A stretch of 27,955 nt of DNA from a virus, in IMG/VR virus record IMGVR_UViG_3300030104_003918, positions 1 to 27,955 of that record. The stretch is one strand, 5' to 3'. Both the position numbers and the translations under genes were made by a program. The notes below the pieces were generated by a model that saw nothing but the letters and a program-made list of their open reading frames with translations, ran no database searches and was not told the DNA's origin. Positions 2,367 through 27,094 of the stretch are shown here, piece after piece; within the stretch, counting starts at the first letter, position 1; each line of letters starts with the position of its first letter.

Positions 2367-2766
2367 GCACAGAATAAAGCAACAATATAACCGTCTAAGC
2401 GCATTACTTGTTTTTATAGCAAATGCGTTCACACTGATGTATGTCGGTGGGATGGCTTATAACGATGCCCTATGGTTTGGTTCGGTAAGTGGTGCTTTCA
2501 CATACACAATCTTGTCTACGATTGCAGACTCACAAGACTTAGAGGATATGATTCCTGAACGTCGACGAAAATCTGCGTCTTATCAAGTACCTAATCAGCC
2601 GATTCCGCAAAACATGATACCGTTTAATCAGTATCAACAAATGCAACAGCAACAACCTATGGCACCAATGCCAGCAGGCGGATATATCAATCCACAGTCA
2701 GGAGAGCTGTTAGATGCGGAACAAGGGCCACACATTGATAAGATAGCAGGTAAACAAAGTGGATGA
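2350..2766 (+). CDS. Two-helix membrane protein with Gln/Pro-rich tail
   Basis: 138 residues. Two hydrophobic segments lie at about 17-38 and 42-60, after a short basic N-terminus. A soluble tail of about 75 residues follows, rich in Gln, Pro and Met (around NQYQQMQQQQPMAPMPAGG). A GAGGAAAT-type site precedes the ATG inside the upstream gene. It is the first of three adjacent membrane-protein genes. Size and topology would fit a holin-like protein or a membrane partner of the MscS-like product next door, but no family is recognised. Confidence 0.6.
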   Translation: MDETIKHRIKQQYNRLSALLVFIANAFTLMYVGGMAYNDALWFGSVSGAFTYTILSTIADSQDLEDMIPERRRKSASYQVPNQPIPQNMIPFNQYQQMQQQQPMAPMPAGGYINPQSGELLDAEQGPHIDKIAGKQSG

Positions 2767-3583
2767 AGGACTAGTCTTTGCATGGTTTATCGCAGTAGCG
2801 TTAGGAGTATCAGCAGCGATAAAAAAAGCAAAGAAGTCTGCATTTAGCGATTATAAAATAAGAAGTTTACAAGGAAAAGCAGCAGCGCAAGTGTTTGGAG
2901 TATTAGGAGCTTTAGTTTTTGGAGTAGGGCTTTTGATGTATAGCGGTTTGCTGGCACGTACCGAATATATAGTTGGAGTATCAGCACTTACGTATGCTGC
3001 CTTTTCCCAATACAGTCCTGTTAACGGAGCTTTATCTTTTCTTACAGTAGCATACAAAACAGAGTTTGCTATTGATGATTGGGTAAAAGTATCTAATGAG
3101 GCAGGAGAAATAAAAGGAAAAGTTAAAGATTTTAGTTTAAAGGGCGTAAGGCTTAAAACATTTGACATGTCTGAGGCGATTGTCTCCTGTGATGAATTAC
3201 TTCATTCAGTCGTGGAAAACCTGACACCCTCCGACATATTCAGATGGGAGACGCCTGTTTCTATTTCCAAGATGGTTCCTGTGAAAAACATAGAAAATAC
3301 AGTAAATGCTGTATTATCACAACACAGTTTAGAATCATTAGTAGATGAAGAAGGGTTTGCACAAAAAGCATACATAGAGTTCCATGATGACAAATTAGAT
3401 TTTAAACCAAACTTTCGTAGGATAAGTATATATACATATCATCCAAAATGGATTCCTATGCCTGAAGGTGCGGAACCAATCGGATACGAGGTCGCCTATC
3501 AACTTTCTAGGGAGTTTAAACGTGACATGTATGAGAAGATGGATTCGCAAAAGAATGCATATGTAGATGTGGTGAGGCCATGA
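2759..3583 (+). CDS. MscS-like mechanosensitive channel family protein
   Basis: 274 residues from a GTG start that overlaps the previous gene; no other in-frame Met occurs before residue 60. There are three hydrophobic segments at about 4-21, 42-62 and 68-100. The third runs into TEFAIDDWVKVSNEAGEIKG and then KGVRLKTFD, which matches the MscS beta domain (PF..GD.V.v....G.V.......T.irT.DG). Residues 164-262 resemble the MscS cytoplasmic alpha/beta domain, with ISIYTYHP and then YEVAYQLSREFKRDMYEKM. The Gly/Ala-rich pore-helix pattern is only partly kept. MscS channels open under membrane tension. A viral copy between two small membrane proteins suggests a role in lysis, egress or osmotic control, which is inference. 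Confidence 0.7.
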   Translation: MDEGLVFAWFIAVALGVSAAIKKAKKSAFSDYKIRSLQGKAAAQVFGVLGALVFGVGLLMYSGLLARTEYIVGVSALTYAAFSQYSPVNGALSFLTVAYKTEFAIDDWVKVSNEAGEIKGKVKDFSLKGVRLKTFDMSEAIVSCDELLHSVVENLTPSDIFRWETPVSISKMVPVKNIENTVNAVLSQHSLESLVDEEGFAQKAYIEFHDDKLDFKPNFRRISIYTYHPKWIPMPEGAEPIGYEVAYQLSREFKRDMYEKMDSQKNAYVDVVRP

Positions 3584-7988: not shown

Positions 7989-8534
7989 ATGGTAAGAGTC
8001 AGAGGTCAGTTAGACGCCCCTCTACTTGACGTAGGAGCAGTAAGAGAAGATTACTGGGAACGCAAGGAGATATTACTTCCAAGTTTATCAAGACTTTACA
8101 AACCAAAAGGTTGGAGAAGGTGGTTTTACAAAGAACAAGCACCTAAAATAGTACTAAAAAGATTAACTTCTAGCGATTGGCAAGAAATAGAAAGTAGGAA
8201 TTATGCATTACAGGCAGAGTTGGAAAAAGCAATACCTGAATTTGCACCTTTAGTAAATAAACATATAGGCGGGCAAAAGTTATCAGAATCAGAATATCAA
8301 AAATTAGATAAATTTAGTGTTAAAATGCGACCTATGAATTATACTATGTTACAATTTATGATTGATGAACCTAAGATGTCTTTTGAAGATGTTAAATATA
8401 TGATGGAAATATTGGATGCTAATGACATAGATACGTTGCTTAGTTATGTAAGTATTATGACTTCTGAAAAAGCATTAGTTGCAAAACACATATTTGATAA
8501 AAAAATGAAAGAATCGGAGATGATTAGTCAATAA
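7989..8534 (+). CDS. Putative tail assembly chaperone
   Basis: 181 residues, largely helical and charged (PKIVLKRLTSSDWQEIESR, then MSFEDVKYMMEILDANDIDT). Its place between tail tube and tape measure is where tail assembly chaperones are found. An A7 run at 8499-8505 could slip by -1, but that frame stops at 8525-8527, so no long chaperone extension is encoded. GGTAA lies before the start and the stop overlaps the next ATG (TAATG). The call rests mainly on position. Confidence 0.45.
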   Translation: MVRVRGQLDAPLLDVGAVREDYWERKEILLPSLSRLYKPKGWRRWFYKEQAPKIVLKRLTSSDWQEIESRNYALQAELEKAIPEFAPLVNKHIGGQKLSESEYQKLDKFSVKMRPMNYTMLQFMIDEPKMSFEDVKYMMEILDANDIDTLLSYVSIMTSEKALVAKHIFDKKMKESEMISQ

Positions 8535-15290: not shown

Positions 15291-15488
15291 TTATTCTTCT
15301 GGAAATTCGGATTTAAAAAGGATTTGATTTTCGTTTGTTCGATTTCTTTTTGCCATAATGCTTCTTTTAAGTTGAATCAGCATTGATTTAAATTCAGAAT
15401 CTTCAAGGACTACTTTATTTTCAGATTCGCCGTAGTAGATTTCTCTTAGTTGCTTGTAGCGTTTGATTTGTAATTGATATTCATTCAT
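15291..15488 (-). CDS. 65-residue helical protein
   Basis: MNEYQLQIKRYKQLREIYYG, then FKSMLIQLKRSIMAKRNRTN. Probably a helical hairpin, basic. Its start lies 8 bases inside the upstream gene, so it is the last of a three-gene minus operon. Function unknown. Confidence 0.5.
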   Translation of the reverse strand: MNEYQLQIKRYKQLREIYYGESENKVVLEDSEFKSMLIQLKRSIMAKRNRTNENQILFKSEFPEE

Positions 15489-15618
15489 CTATACAATCCC
15501 AACAGATTTTATTTTTTAAAGGTTTTAAATGAATCATACAATACATTTGACGTTTACCATTTTCATCAATAAATATTCTTGTCTCATGCTTTTTAAATGG
15601 GTTTTGTAATACTTCCAT
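15481..15618 (-). CDS. 45-residue zinc-binding protein
   Basis: MEVLQNPFKKHETRIFIDEN, then MYCMIHLKPLKNKICWDCID. Cys27, His30, Cys39 and Cys42 form a probable CxxH/CxxC zinc site. It starts 2 bases after the upstream stop and overlaps the next gene. Function unknown. Confidence 0.5.
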   Translation of the reverse strand: MEVLQNPFKKHETRIFIDENGKRQMYCMIHLKPLKNKICWDCIDE

Positions 15619-15620
15619 AA

Positions 15621-15779
15621 TTACCAATCTTCCCATAGAATCTTAGAGATATTCTCTATTGTAGCTTTCTCATATGGATATCTATATTTGTCTTCAAAGT
15701 AATCAGGCTCTTCGCAATTACAAAATACTGATGGCTCATCACAAGCCATACAATGTTTGAATTTGTCTGTCCAACTCAT
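15621..15779 (-). CDS. 52-residue Cys-rich protein
   Basis: MSWTDKFKHCMACDEPSVFC and then NCEEPDYFEDKYRYPYEKAT. Cys10, Cys13, Cys20 and Cys22 may bind zinc. The start at 15779 is chosen because it lies 31 bases after the first base of the TATA box, the spacing of other leaderless genes here. An ATG at 15791 would be only 19 bases away. First gene of the minus operon. Confidence 0.5.
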   Translation of the reverse strand: MSWTDKFKHCMACDEPSVFCNCEEPDYFEDKYRYPYEKATIENISKILWEDW

Positions 15780-15801
15780 AGGATTTCCCATAGAGAACAG
15801 T

Positions 15802-15810
15802 CTATATAAA
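15802..15810 (-). promoter_or_regulatory. TATA box of the minus operon
   Basis: On the minus strand it reads TTTATATAG followed by AC, 31 bases before ATG 15779. Confidence 0.6.
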
Positions 15811-15850
15811 TGTGGTGGTTTAATTGATATTTATTCATGTAATGTAAGGT

Positions 15851-16118
15851 GGTTAGAGTGCAATACTATTTTGCTATTTTCATCTTTCTAACCGTTGAAC
15901 ACGCAGGGTCTAATTCGCCGTTTACTGCCTGTATTCAAGTTCATTGGCCTATAACGTCAATGGGCCTTGACGCCTCGTTATATACCATTGGCACGTGTTC
16001 ATTGCTAGGGTATGCAACCACCTCTAGTTTGGTCAGAGGATTTCACCAATTATACTGCGTTAGCTGTATACAGCTCGACTCATAATATAGCTACTAACTA
16101 TGCCAGCCATCCTAGCAA
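15851..16118 (-). ncRNA. Candidate three-domain structured RNA 2
   Basis: Three closing helices tile this gap almost without spacers. TTGCTAGG (16002-16009) pairs with CCTAGCAA (16111-16118). TGAACACG (15896-15903) pairs with CGTGTTCA (15994-16001). GGTTAGA (15851-15857) pairs with TCTAACC (15887-15893). Inside them are CGTCAA/TTGACG (15955-15960, 15967-15972), CCTCT/AGAGG (16021-16025, 16035-16039), the palindrome AGCTGTATACAGCT (16062-16075) and GCAA/TTGC (15860-15863, 15871-15874). A minus-strand TATA box (16138-16146) predicts a 5' end near 16116, at the outer edge of the first helix. No convincing protein frame. Does not match tRNA; SRP and RNase P RNA motifs were looked for by eye and not found. 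Confidence 0.6.
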
Positions 16119-16137
16119 ATATCCATAGACGGAGGGT

Positions 16138-16146
16138 CTATATAAA
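16138..16146 (-). promoter_or_regulatory. TATA box of candidate RNA 2
   Basis: On the minus strand TTTATATAG followed by ACC. No start codon with a usable frame lies 28-31 bases on: TTG at 16118 gives 6 codons. It therefore probably drives an RNA. Confidence 0.55.
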
Positions 16147-16159
16147 ACCTATGTTGGAA

Positions 16160-16345
16160 TTAATCTTCACTATTTTCTTGTTCTTCTAACCATATATCAG
16201 AAGGTGTCATCTCTTCTTCAATGTCTGACAATCTTATACCATTATACTCTTCGTTTTCACAATCCATAGTATGACATTCATACCTTATTACTTTCTTTAA
16301 TCGCTTATTACAGCAATCACATTTACGTATATATCTAGGTTTCAA
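16160..16345 (-). CDS. Zinc-finger protein, 61 residues
   Basis: Read from a TTG at 16345, which has GGTGA about 7 bases upstream; a stop three codons before rules out a longer form. IRKCDCCNKRLKKVIRYECH and then TMDCENEEY give a Cys-rich site; the rest is acidic (LSDIEEEMTPSDIWLEEQEN). It is the second gene of a minus operon with 16398-16754. Function unknown. Confidence 0.5.
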   Translation of the reverse strand: MKPRYIRKCDCCNKRLKKVIRYECHTMDCENEEYNGIRLSDIEEEMTPSDIWLEEQENSED

Positions 16346-16363
16346 TTTTATTCACCTTTAGCC

Positions 16364-16399
16364 CCACAAGACCGGAGTCCTGTGGTAGCCGGTTTTTTT
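16364..16399. terminator. Competing hairpins and T7 run
   Basis: Two exclusive folds share bases. One pairs CCACA (16364-16368) with TGTGG (16381-16385), with GAC/GTC inside and a CGGA loop. The other pairs ACCGG (16371-16375) with CCGGT (16389-16393), followed by T7 (16393-16399) on the plus strand. It sits between two minus-strand genes, so it may block antisense reading from the left or act as a processing hairpin in the minus mRNA. Confidence 0.35.
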
Positions 16400-16830: not shown

Positions 16831-17017
16831 CAATTAGGCTGATTGACAATTCACCAATTAGGTTATTAGACAATTAGGTTTTTTGGTTAAAAGGCGAAAA
16901 GCCTAAATGTATTTTAGACAATATGGATATTAGGATTTTAGGGTTTTAGGTTTTTTGGTTATTAGTTTTTTTAGGATGTTTGGGGTTTTAGGATATTAGG
17001 TTTTTGGGTTTTTAGGA
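16831..17017 (+). repeat. G/T-rich degenerate repeat tract
   Basis: Dense copies of TTAGG-type units with almost no C on the plus strand. CAATTAGG occurs at 16831, 16855 and 16871. The 17-base TTTAGGTTTTTTGGTTA recurs with one difference at 16873-16889 and 16945-16961. GGATATTAGG occurs at 16925 and 16991. A small hairpin AGGC/GCCT lies at 16892-16904, and TAACAAC/GTTGTTA (17018-17036) follows. Related units occur at 19787-19930. Origin, packaging or regulatory use is possible. The rest of the gap to 17274 holds extra TATA-like tracts but no gene. Confidence 0.5.
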
Positions 17018-17274
17018 TAACAACTTGAGGTTGTTAACCTATGGTAAAAATTGGCAGGGAACGCTGTTTTTTGGGCTTGAGATTCATTTGTATACAATCA
17101 TAAGGAGGATATATACACCATATGTCAGAATGCTTTAAAATGGATTTGGCCATTTAGTATATATATTCCTTTTATATAGGCAATCCTTTAAATTTCGATT
17201 TTTTGACCGGTGCTCTTATAAACCCCATTTTAGAGCAATTTCTGTAGAAGGGGGTATTTAAAGAAGGCGTAAAC

Positions 17275-17638: not shown

Positions 17639-17811
17639 GTTTAACTGGAGCTGGTAATTGGTGGGATAAAAAAGATAAATATTCTCGTTGTCCTAAGTGC
17701 GACAAGAAAGGATTCTATAGCACAAGTCTGGTAGATAAAAATGGCCAGATACACAAGTGGGATTCCTGTATGTTTTGTAAGGAAACCGTGCTCAAATACA
17801 ATAGGACATAG
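17635..17811 (+). CDS. Zinc-ribbon mini-protein
   Basis: 58 residues: RCPKCDKKGFYSTSLVDKNG, then WDSCMFCKETVLKY. Two CxxC knuckles 26 residues apart make a classic zinc ribbon. It overlaps the upstream stop (ATGA) and ends just before the next promoter. Function unknown. Confidence 0.6.
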   Translation: MSLTGAGNWWDKKDKYSRCPKCDKKGFYSTSLVDKNGQIHKWDSCMFCKETVLKYNRT

Positions 17812-17813
17812 GT

Positions 17814-17822
17814 TTTATATAG
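17814..17822 (+). promoter_or_regulatory. TATA box for the 17844 operon
   Basis: TTTATATAG followed by ACC, 30 bases before ATG 17844; leaderless start. Confidence 0.65.
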
Positions 17823-17843
17823 ACCTATATACTTGGGTAAATT

Positions 17844-17972
17844 ATGAACGAGCAACAACAAATCGTTAAGCCTGCTAACGCCCATCCTTTGGGCTGTGAC
17901 TGTCGCAACTGTATTTCTTATCAGTTGGACCTTATGGAAGTATTAAGAGTGGAGTTTGATTTTAATGGATAG
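17844..17972 (+). CDS. 42-residue Cys-rich protein
   Basis: MNEQQQIVKPANAHPLGCDC and then RNCISYQLDLMEVLRVEF. His14, Cys18, Cys20 and Cys23 could bind zinc. Leaderless start 30 bases after the TATA box. Its last codons contain GGAG for the next gene, which it overlaps by 8 bases. Confidence 0.5.
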   Translation: MNEQQQIVKPANAHPLGCDCRNCISYQLDLMEVLRVEFDFNG

Positions 17973-23554: not shown

Positions 23555-23670
23555 TTAGAGATGGTAAAGTATTGGAAGAGTCTGACAGTTTACAAGAAGT
23601 GCATGAGAAGTTGATAATTTTAGATGCAGAAACTAAATATATAGAAATAAACATTGCAAAACACAAATGA
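23533..23670 (+). CDS. 45-residue protein, start uncertain
   Basis: No ATG; TTG 23533 (or TTG 23518) is the best start. VVIIRIIRDGKVLEESDSLQ, then EVHEKLIILDAETKYIEINI looks like a real small beta-alpha protein. Its stop overlaps the terminase ATG (ATGA), which supports coupled translation. Confidence 0.4.
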   Translation: MVVIIRIIRDGKVLEESDSLQEVHEKLIILDAETKYIEINIAKHK

Positions 23671-25130
23671 ATAGCAAACACATCACGCAGGCGATAGCAG
23701 GTGCGCTTGAAATAATGAATGAGCAGCCACTTACTTTGAATGAGTTCATAGATGAGGTGATGTCGGACTATATGGAGCAGGAGCCGGGGACTTATGTGCC
23801 GTTAGGTGAGATGCATCAGCAGTGGGAAGAGAACTTTCAGAAGGGTGAGTTTGCATCTATTATATGTGCAAGGGGTCACTTAAAGACAACTTGGGGTTTG
23901 TGTGTATTGGCTTATATGATGCACAAGCAACCTAACTTTAGGGCATTGTATATTTCGGCTACATTGGAGCAGGCATGGGACAAACTTGAGCAGTTTGAGG
24001 AATTATGCAAGCGAAGTTGGCGATTAAACACATTTTTAGAAAAAAGTGACGATAGAAAGGTGACAATACGTAAAGGAGCTAAAAGATTTAACAATGGAAG
24101 TAGAGTAGCTGCTGCAAGTATAGGTAAGGCACTTGAGGGGCCTCACGTTCATATGATAATTCTTGACGACGTATTGCAAGAGTTTCCAAATTTGACGGAT
24201 GAGAAGGTAATCCACTATGTTCAGCGCGTTGTAATGCCGATGAGGTTGCCAGATTCTAAGATGTTATTGGTAGGAACGCAAAAAAGGGTAGGAGACATAA
24301 CAGATTGGGTATCTGAAAGTTCAGAATGGAATGTATTAAGGCATCCTGCGCTTTTGGAAGACGGAACTCCGCGTTGGCCAGAGTATTGGAATCAGGAGCG
24401 TTTGGATAAAGAAAAGGAGACAATGGGAAGTCGGGCGTTCGAGTCTGAGTATATGTTAAATCCTTTGGACCCAGAGAGTGCAGTTATACCGTATGAGGTA
24501 TTACAGAGATGTTTGGATGAAAATTTAGATATGGGGCTTCCAGATTACACGGACGATATAAGCGTCGTTATGGGTGTTGACTTGGCTGTGGGCATGAACA
24601 GTCAAAACGATGAGACAAGCTACTGTATTGTGGCTTATAATAAGAAAAACGAGCATCGTAGGTTGCTTTACAGTTGGACAGGCAAGGTAATGGCCAAAGG
24701 CAGTGGTTGGTTGGAAACTCAGGTGTTAAAGATACGCGAGCTTGCGAAACGTTTTAATCCAGAAACGATAATGATAGAATCGAATGGGTATCAGAGACTT
24801 GTGGTTCATAGTGCGAGTGATTTGGCGGGCTTACCTGTCGAAGGGCACAACACGGGCAGAGAGAAGCACTCCCACGACGTGGGTATACCGGGCTTGGCCT
24901 TGGAGTTTGAGAAAGAGAGATACCAGATTCCGTGGCAAGAAGAAATAAGGGGTGCAAGTCGGCCGGGTCCTAGAAAGTTAACAGATGGTTTGAGTCGTTT
25001 GGTGTATGGTAAGAATGGTAGGTTAGAGGGTCACACGCCAGATGCAGTGATGGCCTTGTGGATGTGTGAATTAGCAATTAAAAGCAAGAATAAACGTGAG
25101 CTTGCATTTGTTGGTTGGGATTACATATAG
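23667..25130 (+). CDS. terL: Terminase large subunit
   Basis: 487 residues. The ATPase half has Walker A at 68-75 (ARGHLKTT), Walker B at 163-168 (MIILDD, then V) and motif III LLVGTQ at 200-205. The nuclease half has Asp305 (GVDLA), Glu371 (IMIESNGYQ) and Asp459 (HTPDAVMALW), an RNase H-like metal triad. The protein pumps DNA into the procapsid and cuts it. Length is typical. It closes the operon that starts at 20611; a new promoter follows the stop. Confidence 0.9.
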   Translation: MNSKHITQAIAGALEIMNEQPLTLNEFIDEVMSDYMEQEPGTYVPLGEMHQQWEENFQKGEFASIICARGHLKTTWGLCVLAYMMHKQPNFRALYISATLEQAWDKLEQFEELCKRSWRLNTFLEKSDDRKVTIRKGAKRFNNGSRVAAASIGKALEGPHVHMIILDDVLQEFPNLTDEKVIHYVQRVVMPMRLPDSKMLLVGTQKRVGDITDWVSESSEWNVLRHPALLEDGTPRWPEYWNQERLDKEKETMGSRAFESEYMLNPLDPESAVIPYEVLQRCLDENLDMGLPDYTDDISVVMGVDLAVGMNSQNDETSYCIVAYNKKNEHRRLLYSWTGKVMAKGSGWLETQVLKIRELAKRFNPETIMIESNGYQRLVVHSASDLAGLPVEGHNTGREKHSHDVGIPGLALEFEKERYQIPWQEEIRGASRPGPRKLTDGLSRLVYGKNGRLEGHTPDAVMALWMCELAIKSKNKRELAFVGWDYI

Positions 25131-25325: not shown

Positions 25326-25710
25326 GCGAGATAGATATAAGATTCCTCGTGGTGTAAAGAAAGAAGCATTGCAGGGTAGAGATTTGCGAGCGATGCATGG
25401 ATATGGTGGCGGTAAGGTTACGAAGGCAATTAATCGTAAGTTAAGATATCAAAAAGACGTAGGATACAAGACTGCGGTAAAGATAGACACATATTACAGA
25501 AGGCACGAAAAAGTAGACCCACCAGCTAAGAACTTTGGCGACAAGAAGAATCCAAGTAAGGGATACATAATGTGGAAGATGATGGGTGGTAATTCTGGAC
25601 AAAGTTGGAGTCGAAGGTTAAAAAAGAGTTTAGATGTTATACAGAAAAAGGAAAAGCTTAATAAGATAATTACTAAAGTGGAGGCGATACAACTTGGCAT
25701 GGTACGATAG
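25315..25710 (+). CDS. Phage protein with WxxxGG-type signature
   Basis: 131 residues from ATG 25315, with GGGAG four bases before; ATG 25300 is possible. IPRGVKKEALQGRDLRAMHG, GGKVTKAINRKLRYQ, IDTYYRRHEKVDPPAKNFGD and GYIMWKMMGGNSGQSWSRRL follow the order of a small phage protein often found near terminase and portal genes (RGL.LR...GG...RA..L ... FF.RHE ... WL.WGGDAG..W). Its role is unknown. It ends inside the portal gene. Confidence 0.55.
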   Translation: MGDKRDRYKIPRGVKKEALQGRDLRAMHGYGGGKVTKAINRKLRYQKDVGYKTAVKIDTYYRRHEKVDPPAKNFGDKKNPSKGYIMWKMMGGNSGQSWSRRLKKSLDVIQKKEKLNKIITKVEAIQLGMVR

Positions 25711-27094
25711 AATTTTGGGGCGTAAGCCAGTGCGGAAGCGTTCTGCGTTAGAGGATTTGATAGAGAGAAACACTGCTAGTGTGTTAAAGGATGCAAGGAC
25801 TCCAGCGTATGGGACAGCAGGCAGTAATCGTGCGTTTAAGGCAGATATACTTCCTCCAGTAGACCAGAATTATCTTGAACAATTAGCAGACAGGTATTCT
25901 CATCTTCGAACTGTTATAACTAGGATAGCTTCTCAGTCGGTCGCAAAGGGGTGGGAATACCACGCCGTTGGTGATGCAGGTGACAAAGAAGAGAGAAACA
26001 TGTTAGAAACATTACTTAGAGACCCTACTGGTGGTAATGCAGATATTACTGCAAGTGAGTTTTTCAAGGCAATGATACGTCAAGTAGAGGTGTTTGACGA
26101 TTGTTGGGTAAGTATTGTTTATGACAGGATTCAGGGAACAGATGGTAAGATAGTCAAGGAGCTTTGGGTAGAGGATGCAAAGCAAATGCGATTTGCAGTT
26201 GACGATTATGGTAAGTTTAAGAATGATGAGTATTTTGATATAATCACACGAAAACCTTTGGCAAAAGGAGAATTAGGAGAGGGTGGATTTGAAGCAGAGC
26301 CGATGGCATATTATTATGACATGGGACAGGATGAAGATAAGATTCCTTTTGCAAGGGATGAGATTATTCATTTTAATAAATACAGTGCGAATGCCAGATT
26401 GTATGGTCAGTCGCCAATTATAGGTCTTTCTAAGAAAATCGAAACAGCTCTCGCTATTGAAAACTTCCAAAACAAGATTTATAAACTAGAAAGGCCACCA
26501 AAAGGTTTCTTAGATATTCCCGGCCATGATGAAGAATCTCTTAACAGATTGGGAGAATACATAGCAGAGGAGACTAGACGTAATCCGAACTTTGTTCCTA
26601 TCATAAGTAGTAGGGGTGAAGGCACAGGTAGCGGTCAGGCTAAGTTTGTGCCTGTTATGCCTAACATGGATGAGTTGATGGCACTGCCATATATGGAGCG
26701 CATTAACAACGATATAAACGCAGCTTATGGCGTTATGCCGATAGTAACAGGAAGCACAGCAGGTGTGGGTGGTTTGAATGCGGAAGGCGAACAGATTTCG
26801 CTTTTTGACCGAACTGTGTTAGAAACACAACAGTGTTTGGAAATGGGATTCCTTAAGCCATTAATGAGATTGATGGGAATAAAAACATGGAAGGTAAAGT
26901 TTGCAGACATTAATACAAAGAACGAGCAACAAGCATTAGCTAATATGTTACAGAAAGCAAATATAATTACAGTATTAAATAAGGTAGGAATAGAAGCTAC
27001 GTTAGACAAAGATGGCAATTTGGTTTTACCAGATAAGCCACAAGTAAGTATGCCAGAAGATGTTAAACCAGAGGTAGGTGCAATAAAACCATGA
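25694..27094 (+). CDS. Portal protein
   Basis: 466 residues from TTG 25694; GGAGG at 25679-25683 and the lack of a nearby ATG fix the start. DRYSHLRTVITRIASQSVAK, then FFKAMIRQVEVFDDCWVSIV, FARDEIIHFNKYSANARLYG and QSPIIGLSKKIETALAIENF are typical of portals (DEIiHf, GxSpI). The stem and clip region is followed by AAYGVMPIVTGSTAG. The dodecameric portal is the DNA gate at one capsid vertex and binds the terminase, encoded 0.6 kb upstream. The C-terminus is Pro-rich. Confidence 0.85.
   Translation: MAWYDRILGRKPVRKRSALEDLIERNTASVLKDARTPAYGTAGSNRAFKADILPPVDQNYLEQLADRYSHLRTVITRIASQSVAKGWEYHAVGDAGDKEERNMLETLLRDPTGGNADITASEFFKAMIRQVEVFDDCWVSIVYDRIQGTDGKIVKELWVEDAKQMRFAVDDYGKFKNDEYFDIITRKPLAKGELGEGGFEAEPMAYYYDMGQDEDKIPFARDEIIHFNKYSANARLYGQSPIIGLSKKIETALAIENFQNKIYKLERPPKGFLDIPGHDEESLNRLGEYIAEETRRNPNFVPIISSRGEGTGSGQAKFVPVMPNMDELMALPYMERINNDINAAYGVMPIVTGSTAGVGGLNAEGEQISLFDRTVLETQQCLEMGFLKPLMRLMGIKTWKVKFADINTKNEQQALANMLQKANIITVLNKVGIEATLDKDGNLVLPDKPQVSMPEDVKPEVGAIKP

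Follow-up and report, generated by a model that had tools for sequence, protein, structure and literature searches.

A portable RNA hairpin of marine viruses and its place in a predicted three-domain viral RNA

The manA RNA (RF01745), known from marine metagenomes and cyanophages, has been put forward as a candidate for a 5'-UTR riboswitch (PMC2864571). Among the larger structured RNAs of viruses, GOLLD has a conserved 3' region and a less conserved 5' region, and ROOL is built of several domains and lies near tRNA genes (PMC12286853). In tandem riboswitch leaders, several closed domains likewise follow one another, sometimes directly before a start codon. We analyzed a stretch of viral DNA of 27,955 bases (here referred to as "the window"), whose minus strand carries three self-closed domains in a row at 15851–16118, and compared it with these systems. 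The first-pass annotation had recognised no RNA class here, which holds for Rfam 15: no family, GOLLD, ROOL and OLE included, matched the window up to E 1 or the region 15820–16150 up to E 10. No tRNA or tmRNA was found in the window by ARAGORN, and no manA at gathering or relaxed thresholds.

The likeness to GOLLD lies in viral origin, large size, proximity to tRNA genes and a 3'-conserved, 5'-variable plan (PMC12286853). However, the window RNA lacks a match to the Rfam family and is much shorter, and its viruses are probably archaeal, not bacterial; it is alike in plan, unrelated, and not a member of GOLLD. With ROOL it shares a multi-domain viral RNA near tRNA genes (PMC12286853), but again there is no Rfam match, and the likeness, drawn from sequence alone, covers this layout and not an oligomer or cage. 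Unlike tandem riboswitch leaders, the hairpin that forms the third domain has no shared regulated gene and occurs upstream of tRNA genes and behind ORFs as well; no downstream gene common to the hairpin-bearing contigs was found. As for manA, both belong to marine viruses, consist of structured modules and share the 3' end CaCCUU; the window itself is without manA, whereas in other contigs manA is physically joined to the hairpin.

The window encodes head-tail virus proteins, namely a terminase (23667–25130), a portal protein (25694–27094) and a tape-measure-like protein at 8534. An IMG/VR search with the terminase gave 80 close relatives. Among named phages, the haloarchaeal viruses phiH and PhiCh1 are found among its near-full-length matches, and bacterial phages are further, partial matches. 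In six ORFs of the window the motif TATATAG stands 20–22 nt before the ATG, which is the spacing of leaderless archaeal transcripts, so the host is probably archaeal. Group II chaperonin and MCM, the marks of magroviruses, are absent from 17 records, which are possibly fragments.

The three closing helices given by the first-pass annotation, 16111–16118/16002–16009 (8 bp), 15994–16001/15896–15903 (8 bp) and 15887–15893/15851–15857 (7 bp), are all exact, and the linkers between them are 0 and 2 nt as claimed. They close domain 1 (16002–16118), domain 2 (15896–16001, with the core CUUGAnnACAGGCAGUAAACG) and domain 3 (15851–15893), all on the minus strand, and the same three domains dominate the centroid fold of the region. 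Domain 3 is the portable hairpin, with C15858 unpaired and a loop at 15859–15886 (AAGAUGAAAAUAGCAAAAUAGUAUUGCA), and it is followed by the module tail ACCUUACAU at 15842–15850. Dinucleotide shuffling of the whole window gave a chain of 8, 8 and 7 bp with linkers no longer than 2 nt in only 2 of 500 cases. Under the laxer rule of at least 7 bp in each helix and linkers of at most 2 nt, the window has one chain, yet 21 of 200 shuffles also have such a chain, and the minimum free energy is ordinary (z −1.32; equally low in 19 of 200 shuffles). The earlier observation was accurate, and the region is confirmed as a real structured RNA. For domains 1 and 2, with single-sequence support and the chance test of 2 in 500, an RNA structure is likely but unproven.

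An archaeal-type promoter box, GGTTTTATATAGACC, is located at 16135–16149 on the minus strand, with its TATATAG at 16138–16144. An exact copy of 20 bp is found at 17806–17825, ahead of the gene at 17844. Applying the spacing of the six ORFs, the predicted 5' end of the RNA is at 16115–16117, in agreement with the earlier proposal that the box sets a 5' end near 16116, and this end does not fall on an ATG. With this spacing between TATA box and predicted 5' end, the unit belongs to the archaeal leaderless promoters, and transcription of the window RNA from such a promoter of its own is well supported by these spacings as a prediction. The transcript may then lack 1–3 bases at the outer end of the first 5' arm. 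The accompanying statement that no usable start codon lies here was too strong, as an ATG at 16110–16108, just inside the 5' end, opens a 16-codon frame in domain 1 (product MAGIVSSYIMSRAVYS, stop at about 16060). Behind the tail there is no U-run of the terminator type, and the RNA could therefore extend into the genes that follow.

The third domain proved to be widespread. Its 28-nt loop AAGAUGAAAAUAGCAAAAUANUAUUGCA is nearly unchanged in 26 further viral contigs obtained by pattern scans of IMG/VR, including contigs of 49–70 kb from other virus groups, while the stems differ from copy to copy (GGTTAGAG/CTCTAACC, TCCGAG/CTCGGA, GGGTGGGG/CCCCATCC, AAACAGG/CCTGTTT, GAGCGGG/CCCGCTC, GTGGTAGG/CCTACCAC and others). 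Covariation was assessed on 14 distinct copies, with the window left out. In these, 93.8% of stem cells are paired, against 66% in shuffled copies, two-sided changes are present in seven of the eight stem pairs, and the covariation is 0.78, compared with 0.23 in shuffles and 0.07–0.20 in slid controls. G-U pairs are retained in the stem. Moreover, model R1, which was built without the window, matches 15850–15894 with 57.5 bits (E 5.5e-12), and its next best match within the window has E 2.3. Compensatory changes, which the first-pass annotation had named as the check on its closing helices, are thus strongly evident for the third. The window has both the loop AAGAUGAAAAUAGCAAAAUANUAUUGCA and the covarying stem, and domain 3 represents a genuine RNA family that is new and absent from Rfam.

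In 17 of the 27 distinct copies, the sequence CCUUA occurs no farther than 25 nt downstream of the loop (about 0.02 expected per copy), and the consensus end of manA, CaCcuu, resembles this tail. A second form of the hairpin, with an extra hairpin inserted beside the loop, is found in L091, L094, L107 and L112–L114. In GTDB genomes the loop motif gave a single match, in Bacillus, which lacks the stem and was rejected as a chance match.

The contexts of the hairpin are diverse, in most cases with further structured RNA modules alongside. It directly follows manA in L094, L107, L109 and L110 and comes after an ORF of about 23 aa in L090, L098 and L101; in L092 and L116 it has an extended stem and stands by itself between genes, and in L099 and L111 it forms a tandem pair. 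The microprotein, conserved and about 23 aa long (MNKYQSSLLTWLVGISYATRKL), stops immediately 5' of the array in L090, L098, L101, L104, L108 and others. The strand of the hairpin agrees with that of nearby ORFs of at least 70 aa in 73 of 126 cases, a proportion that carries no information. We found manA in seven of 17 related records, four of which (G002, G003, G005 and G011) reach the gathering score of 55.2 bits. It is located at L094:3048–3233, L109:5389–5569, L096:4075–4245 and L100:4992–5175, in viruses with archaeal-type promoters, and in L094 and L109 it is joined to other RNA modules and not placed in the 5' UTR of a single gene. In the cyanophage S-SSM7, manA (L149:1501–1701) has a TATAAT box directly upstream and a tRNA-like sequence directly downstream, which suggests that it may have a transcript of its own; manA of P-SSM2 is likewise directly behind a TATAAT box. 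The hairpin is absent from three manA-bearing cyanophages, and the RNA modules gave no convincing match among named phages.

A further new module, about 150 nt long (core UUGACAAGAAUGGCGAAG ... GCGGUUGGAAGCCCGUGGUUAGC), was obtained in at least 10 contigs and has no Rfam match. It is located at L091:1101–1250 on the minus strand and L094:3376–3543 on the plus strand, and is also present in L102, L107, L109, L110, L112 and L114. In this module pairing reaches 98.2%, 29 of 43 pairs changed two-sidedly, and none of 500 shuffles was as good; G-U pairs are kept here too. The module runs into a tRNA-Glu gene in L091, L094 and L109, and in L091 and L094 the tRNA gene ends the array and new promoters follow.

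At the locus itself, the last 46 nt of the RNA are 96–98% identical in the sister viruses L004, L020 and L071, where 15894–16350 is replaced by other sequence or missing. Farther upstream, a conserved hairpin (16351–16397, minus strand), located before the ribosome-binding site AAAGGTGA, is 88–96% identical in L004, L020, L071 and L106. Its counterpart at L025:1287–1336 has paired, compensated changes, and the window hairpin may be pseudoknotted (ACCGG...CCGGT). In the sister viruses the RNA array comes directly after a hairpin of this type. The upstream ORF of 118 aa, used as a query, yielded no relatives. At the same genomic place and with the same promoter spacing, another structured RNA is present on the minus strand of L018 (1890–2290) and L042 (330–740), and in a two-sequence alignment its hairpins appear compensated, for example CCUGUCGAAAGG versus CCGGUCGAACGG.

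No relatives of domain 1 were found among the viral records compared, and an exact 29-mer placed across the boundary between the two 5' domains had no viral match. The 35-nt core of domain 2 is also present in the module 3' of the hairpin in L020, where 14 of 10,000 shuffles were as good; this was one of 22 comparisons, so the value is about 0.03 after correction and the relative is a weak one. It is closed by a different perfect 8-bp helix, CGCAAAAG/CTTTTGCG, and the same module would therefore stand before the hairpin in the window and after it in L020. Other matches of the core, apart from L103 (the same contig as L020), were unrelated sequence with longer open frames and were set aside.

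These data may be read in several ways. That the functional RNA is the third hairpin only, with coincidental helices around unconstrained sequence in domains 1 and 2, is suggested by the missing relatives of domain 1, the ordinary folding energy and the 7/7/7 chains in roughly one tenth of shuffles; we consider it unlikely, given the rarity of the 8/8/7 chain, the differently closed domain 2 core of L020 and the structured RNA that L018 and L042 carry at the same place. A cis-acting 5' leader of the downstream small minus-strand genes, riboswitch-like or acting in translational control, would have the hairpin as sensor or switch and the tail CACCUUA masking or mimicking ribosome-binding sequences. 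The tail is complementary to upstream ribosome-binding sites of the AAGGUG type, the frequent neighbour manA is itself a proposed 5'-UTR riboswitch candidate (PMC2864571), and the same 65-aa ORF (15291–15488 in the window, minus strand; no PHROG match) has its start codon right at the end of the array in L004, L018, L071 and L106. In the window and L020, however, a 56-aa ORF (15621–15791, minus strand) with its own promoter (box at 15808) separates the RNA from the 65-aa ORF, and the ORF start is duplicated (15821–15841 and 15471–15491, repeat D11). Moreover, the arrays ending in a tRNA gene in L091 and L094, together with the hairpin standing alone between other genes in L092, leave no common target gene, and we regard a leader as doubtful, though worth keeping in mind.

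Much less probable is a function at the DNA level, in which cassettes recombine at ACCTTACATT joints and the hairpin acts as folded single-stranded DNA like the attC sites of integrons. Modules do appear, vanish and move among sister viruses at repeated ACCTTACAT joints, and a fixed core with varying stems would fit, but the hairpin is co-oriented with the adjacent manA, tRNA-Glu and preceding tiny ORF, the promoter points into the array at gene-like spacing, and the stem and the 150-nt module both retain G-U pairs, as fits RNA. In the attC consensus the GTT and AAC ends have the opposite orientation to those at the joints of the RNA arrays, which are thus inside-out in comparison. The loop can also be read as five codons (ATG AAA ATA GCA AAA TAG/TAA, giving MKIAK), a micro-ORF in a hairpin that would serve as viral minigene or stalling leader, and its common changes are from TAG to TAA, keeping the stop, and from AAA to ATA. 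Against this, none of the 26 contigs has a synonymous sense change although the scan pattern permitted every synonymous codon, the untranslated flanks (AAG and TATTGC) are conserved equally to the codons, and a ribosome-binding site is not consistently present, so that we give this reading very little credence. The lack of synonymous variants, together with the lack of a PHROG match for a 78-aa ORF on the plus strand, makes a protein unlikely.

We therefore hold it probable, from comparison of sequences, that the locus encodes a viral noncoding RNA of about 270 nt that is modular in build, with a conserved hairpin, presumably for docking, at its 3' end and rapidly changing domains on its 5' side. 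In this RNA, a TATA-type archaeal promoter would start the minus-strand transcript at about 16116, and the product would consist of the three domains in a row and the tail. Since the stem is free to change, the loop is fixed and the contexts are many, the simplest view is that the loop forms the functional surface, and it may be the docking site for one conserved partner. This partner would most likely be a protein or RNA common to the hosts, or else a different module within the RNA itself, and the near letter-perfect loop on changing stems points to a specific one. The 5' domains may be variable adaptors or decoys that are quickly swapped between viruses. As neither a downstream gene nor an upstream context is shared, a stand-alone or processed RNA is favoured over a leader, and it probably functions independently and not as the leader of one particular gene.

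Beyond the window, the main result is that this RNA module is portable and in use across marine viruses. Viruses that are probably archaeal, a group poor in known structured RNAs, thereby gain two RNA families with strong covariation, and a link is drawn to manA, which has had the standing of a riboswitch candidate since 2010. As a tentative extension, to which we would not give quite even chances, marine archaeal viruses could assemble large noncoding RNAs from an exchangeable toolkit of RNA domains (the hairpin, manA, the 150-nt module and others), in which the hairpin would be the docking piece common to all, serving a single conserved partner. On that view manA would be one domain of such assemblies and not a stand-alone riboswitch.

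Elsewhere in the window, a protein with a mechanosensitive-channel beta-domain (PF00924) is encoded at 2759–3583, inside the structural gene region. At 16858–17023, upstream of divergent genes, 8-nt repeats similar to TTAGG(G)TTTT form an AT-rich array that is possibly a replication or regulatory region.
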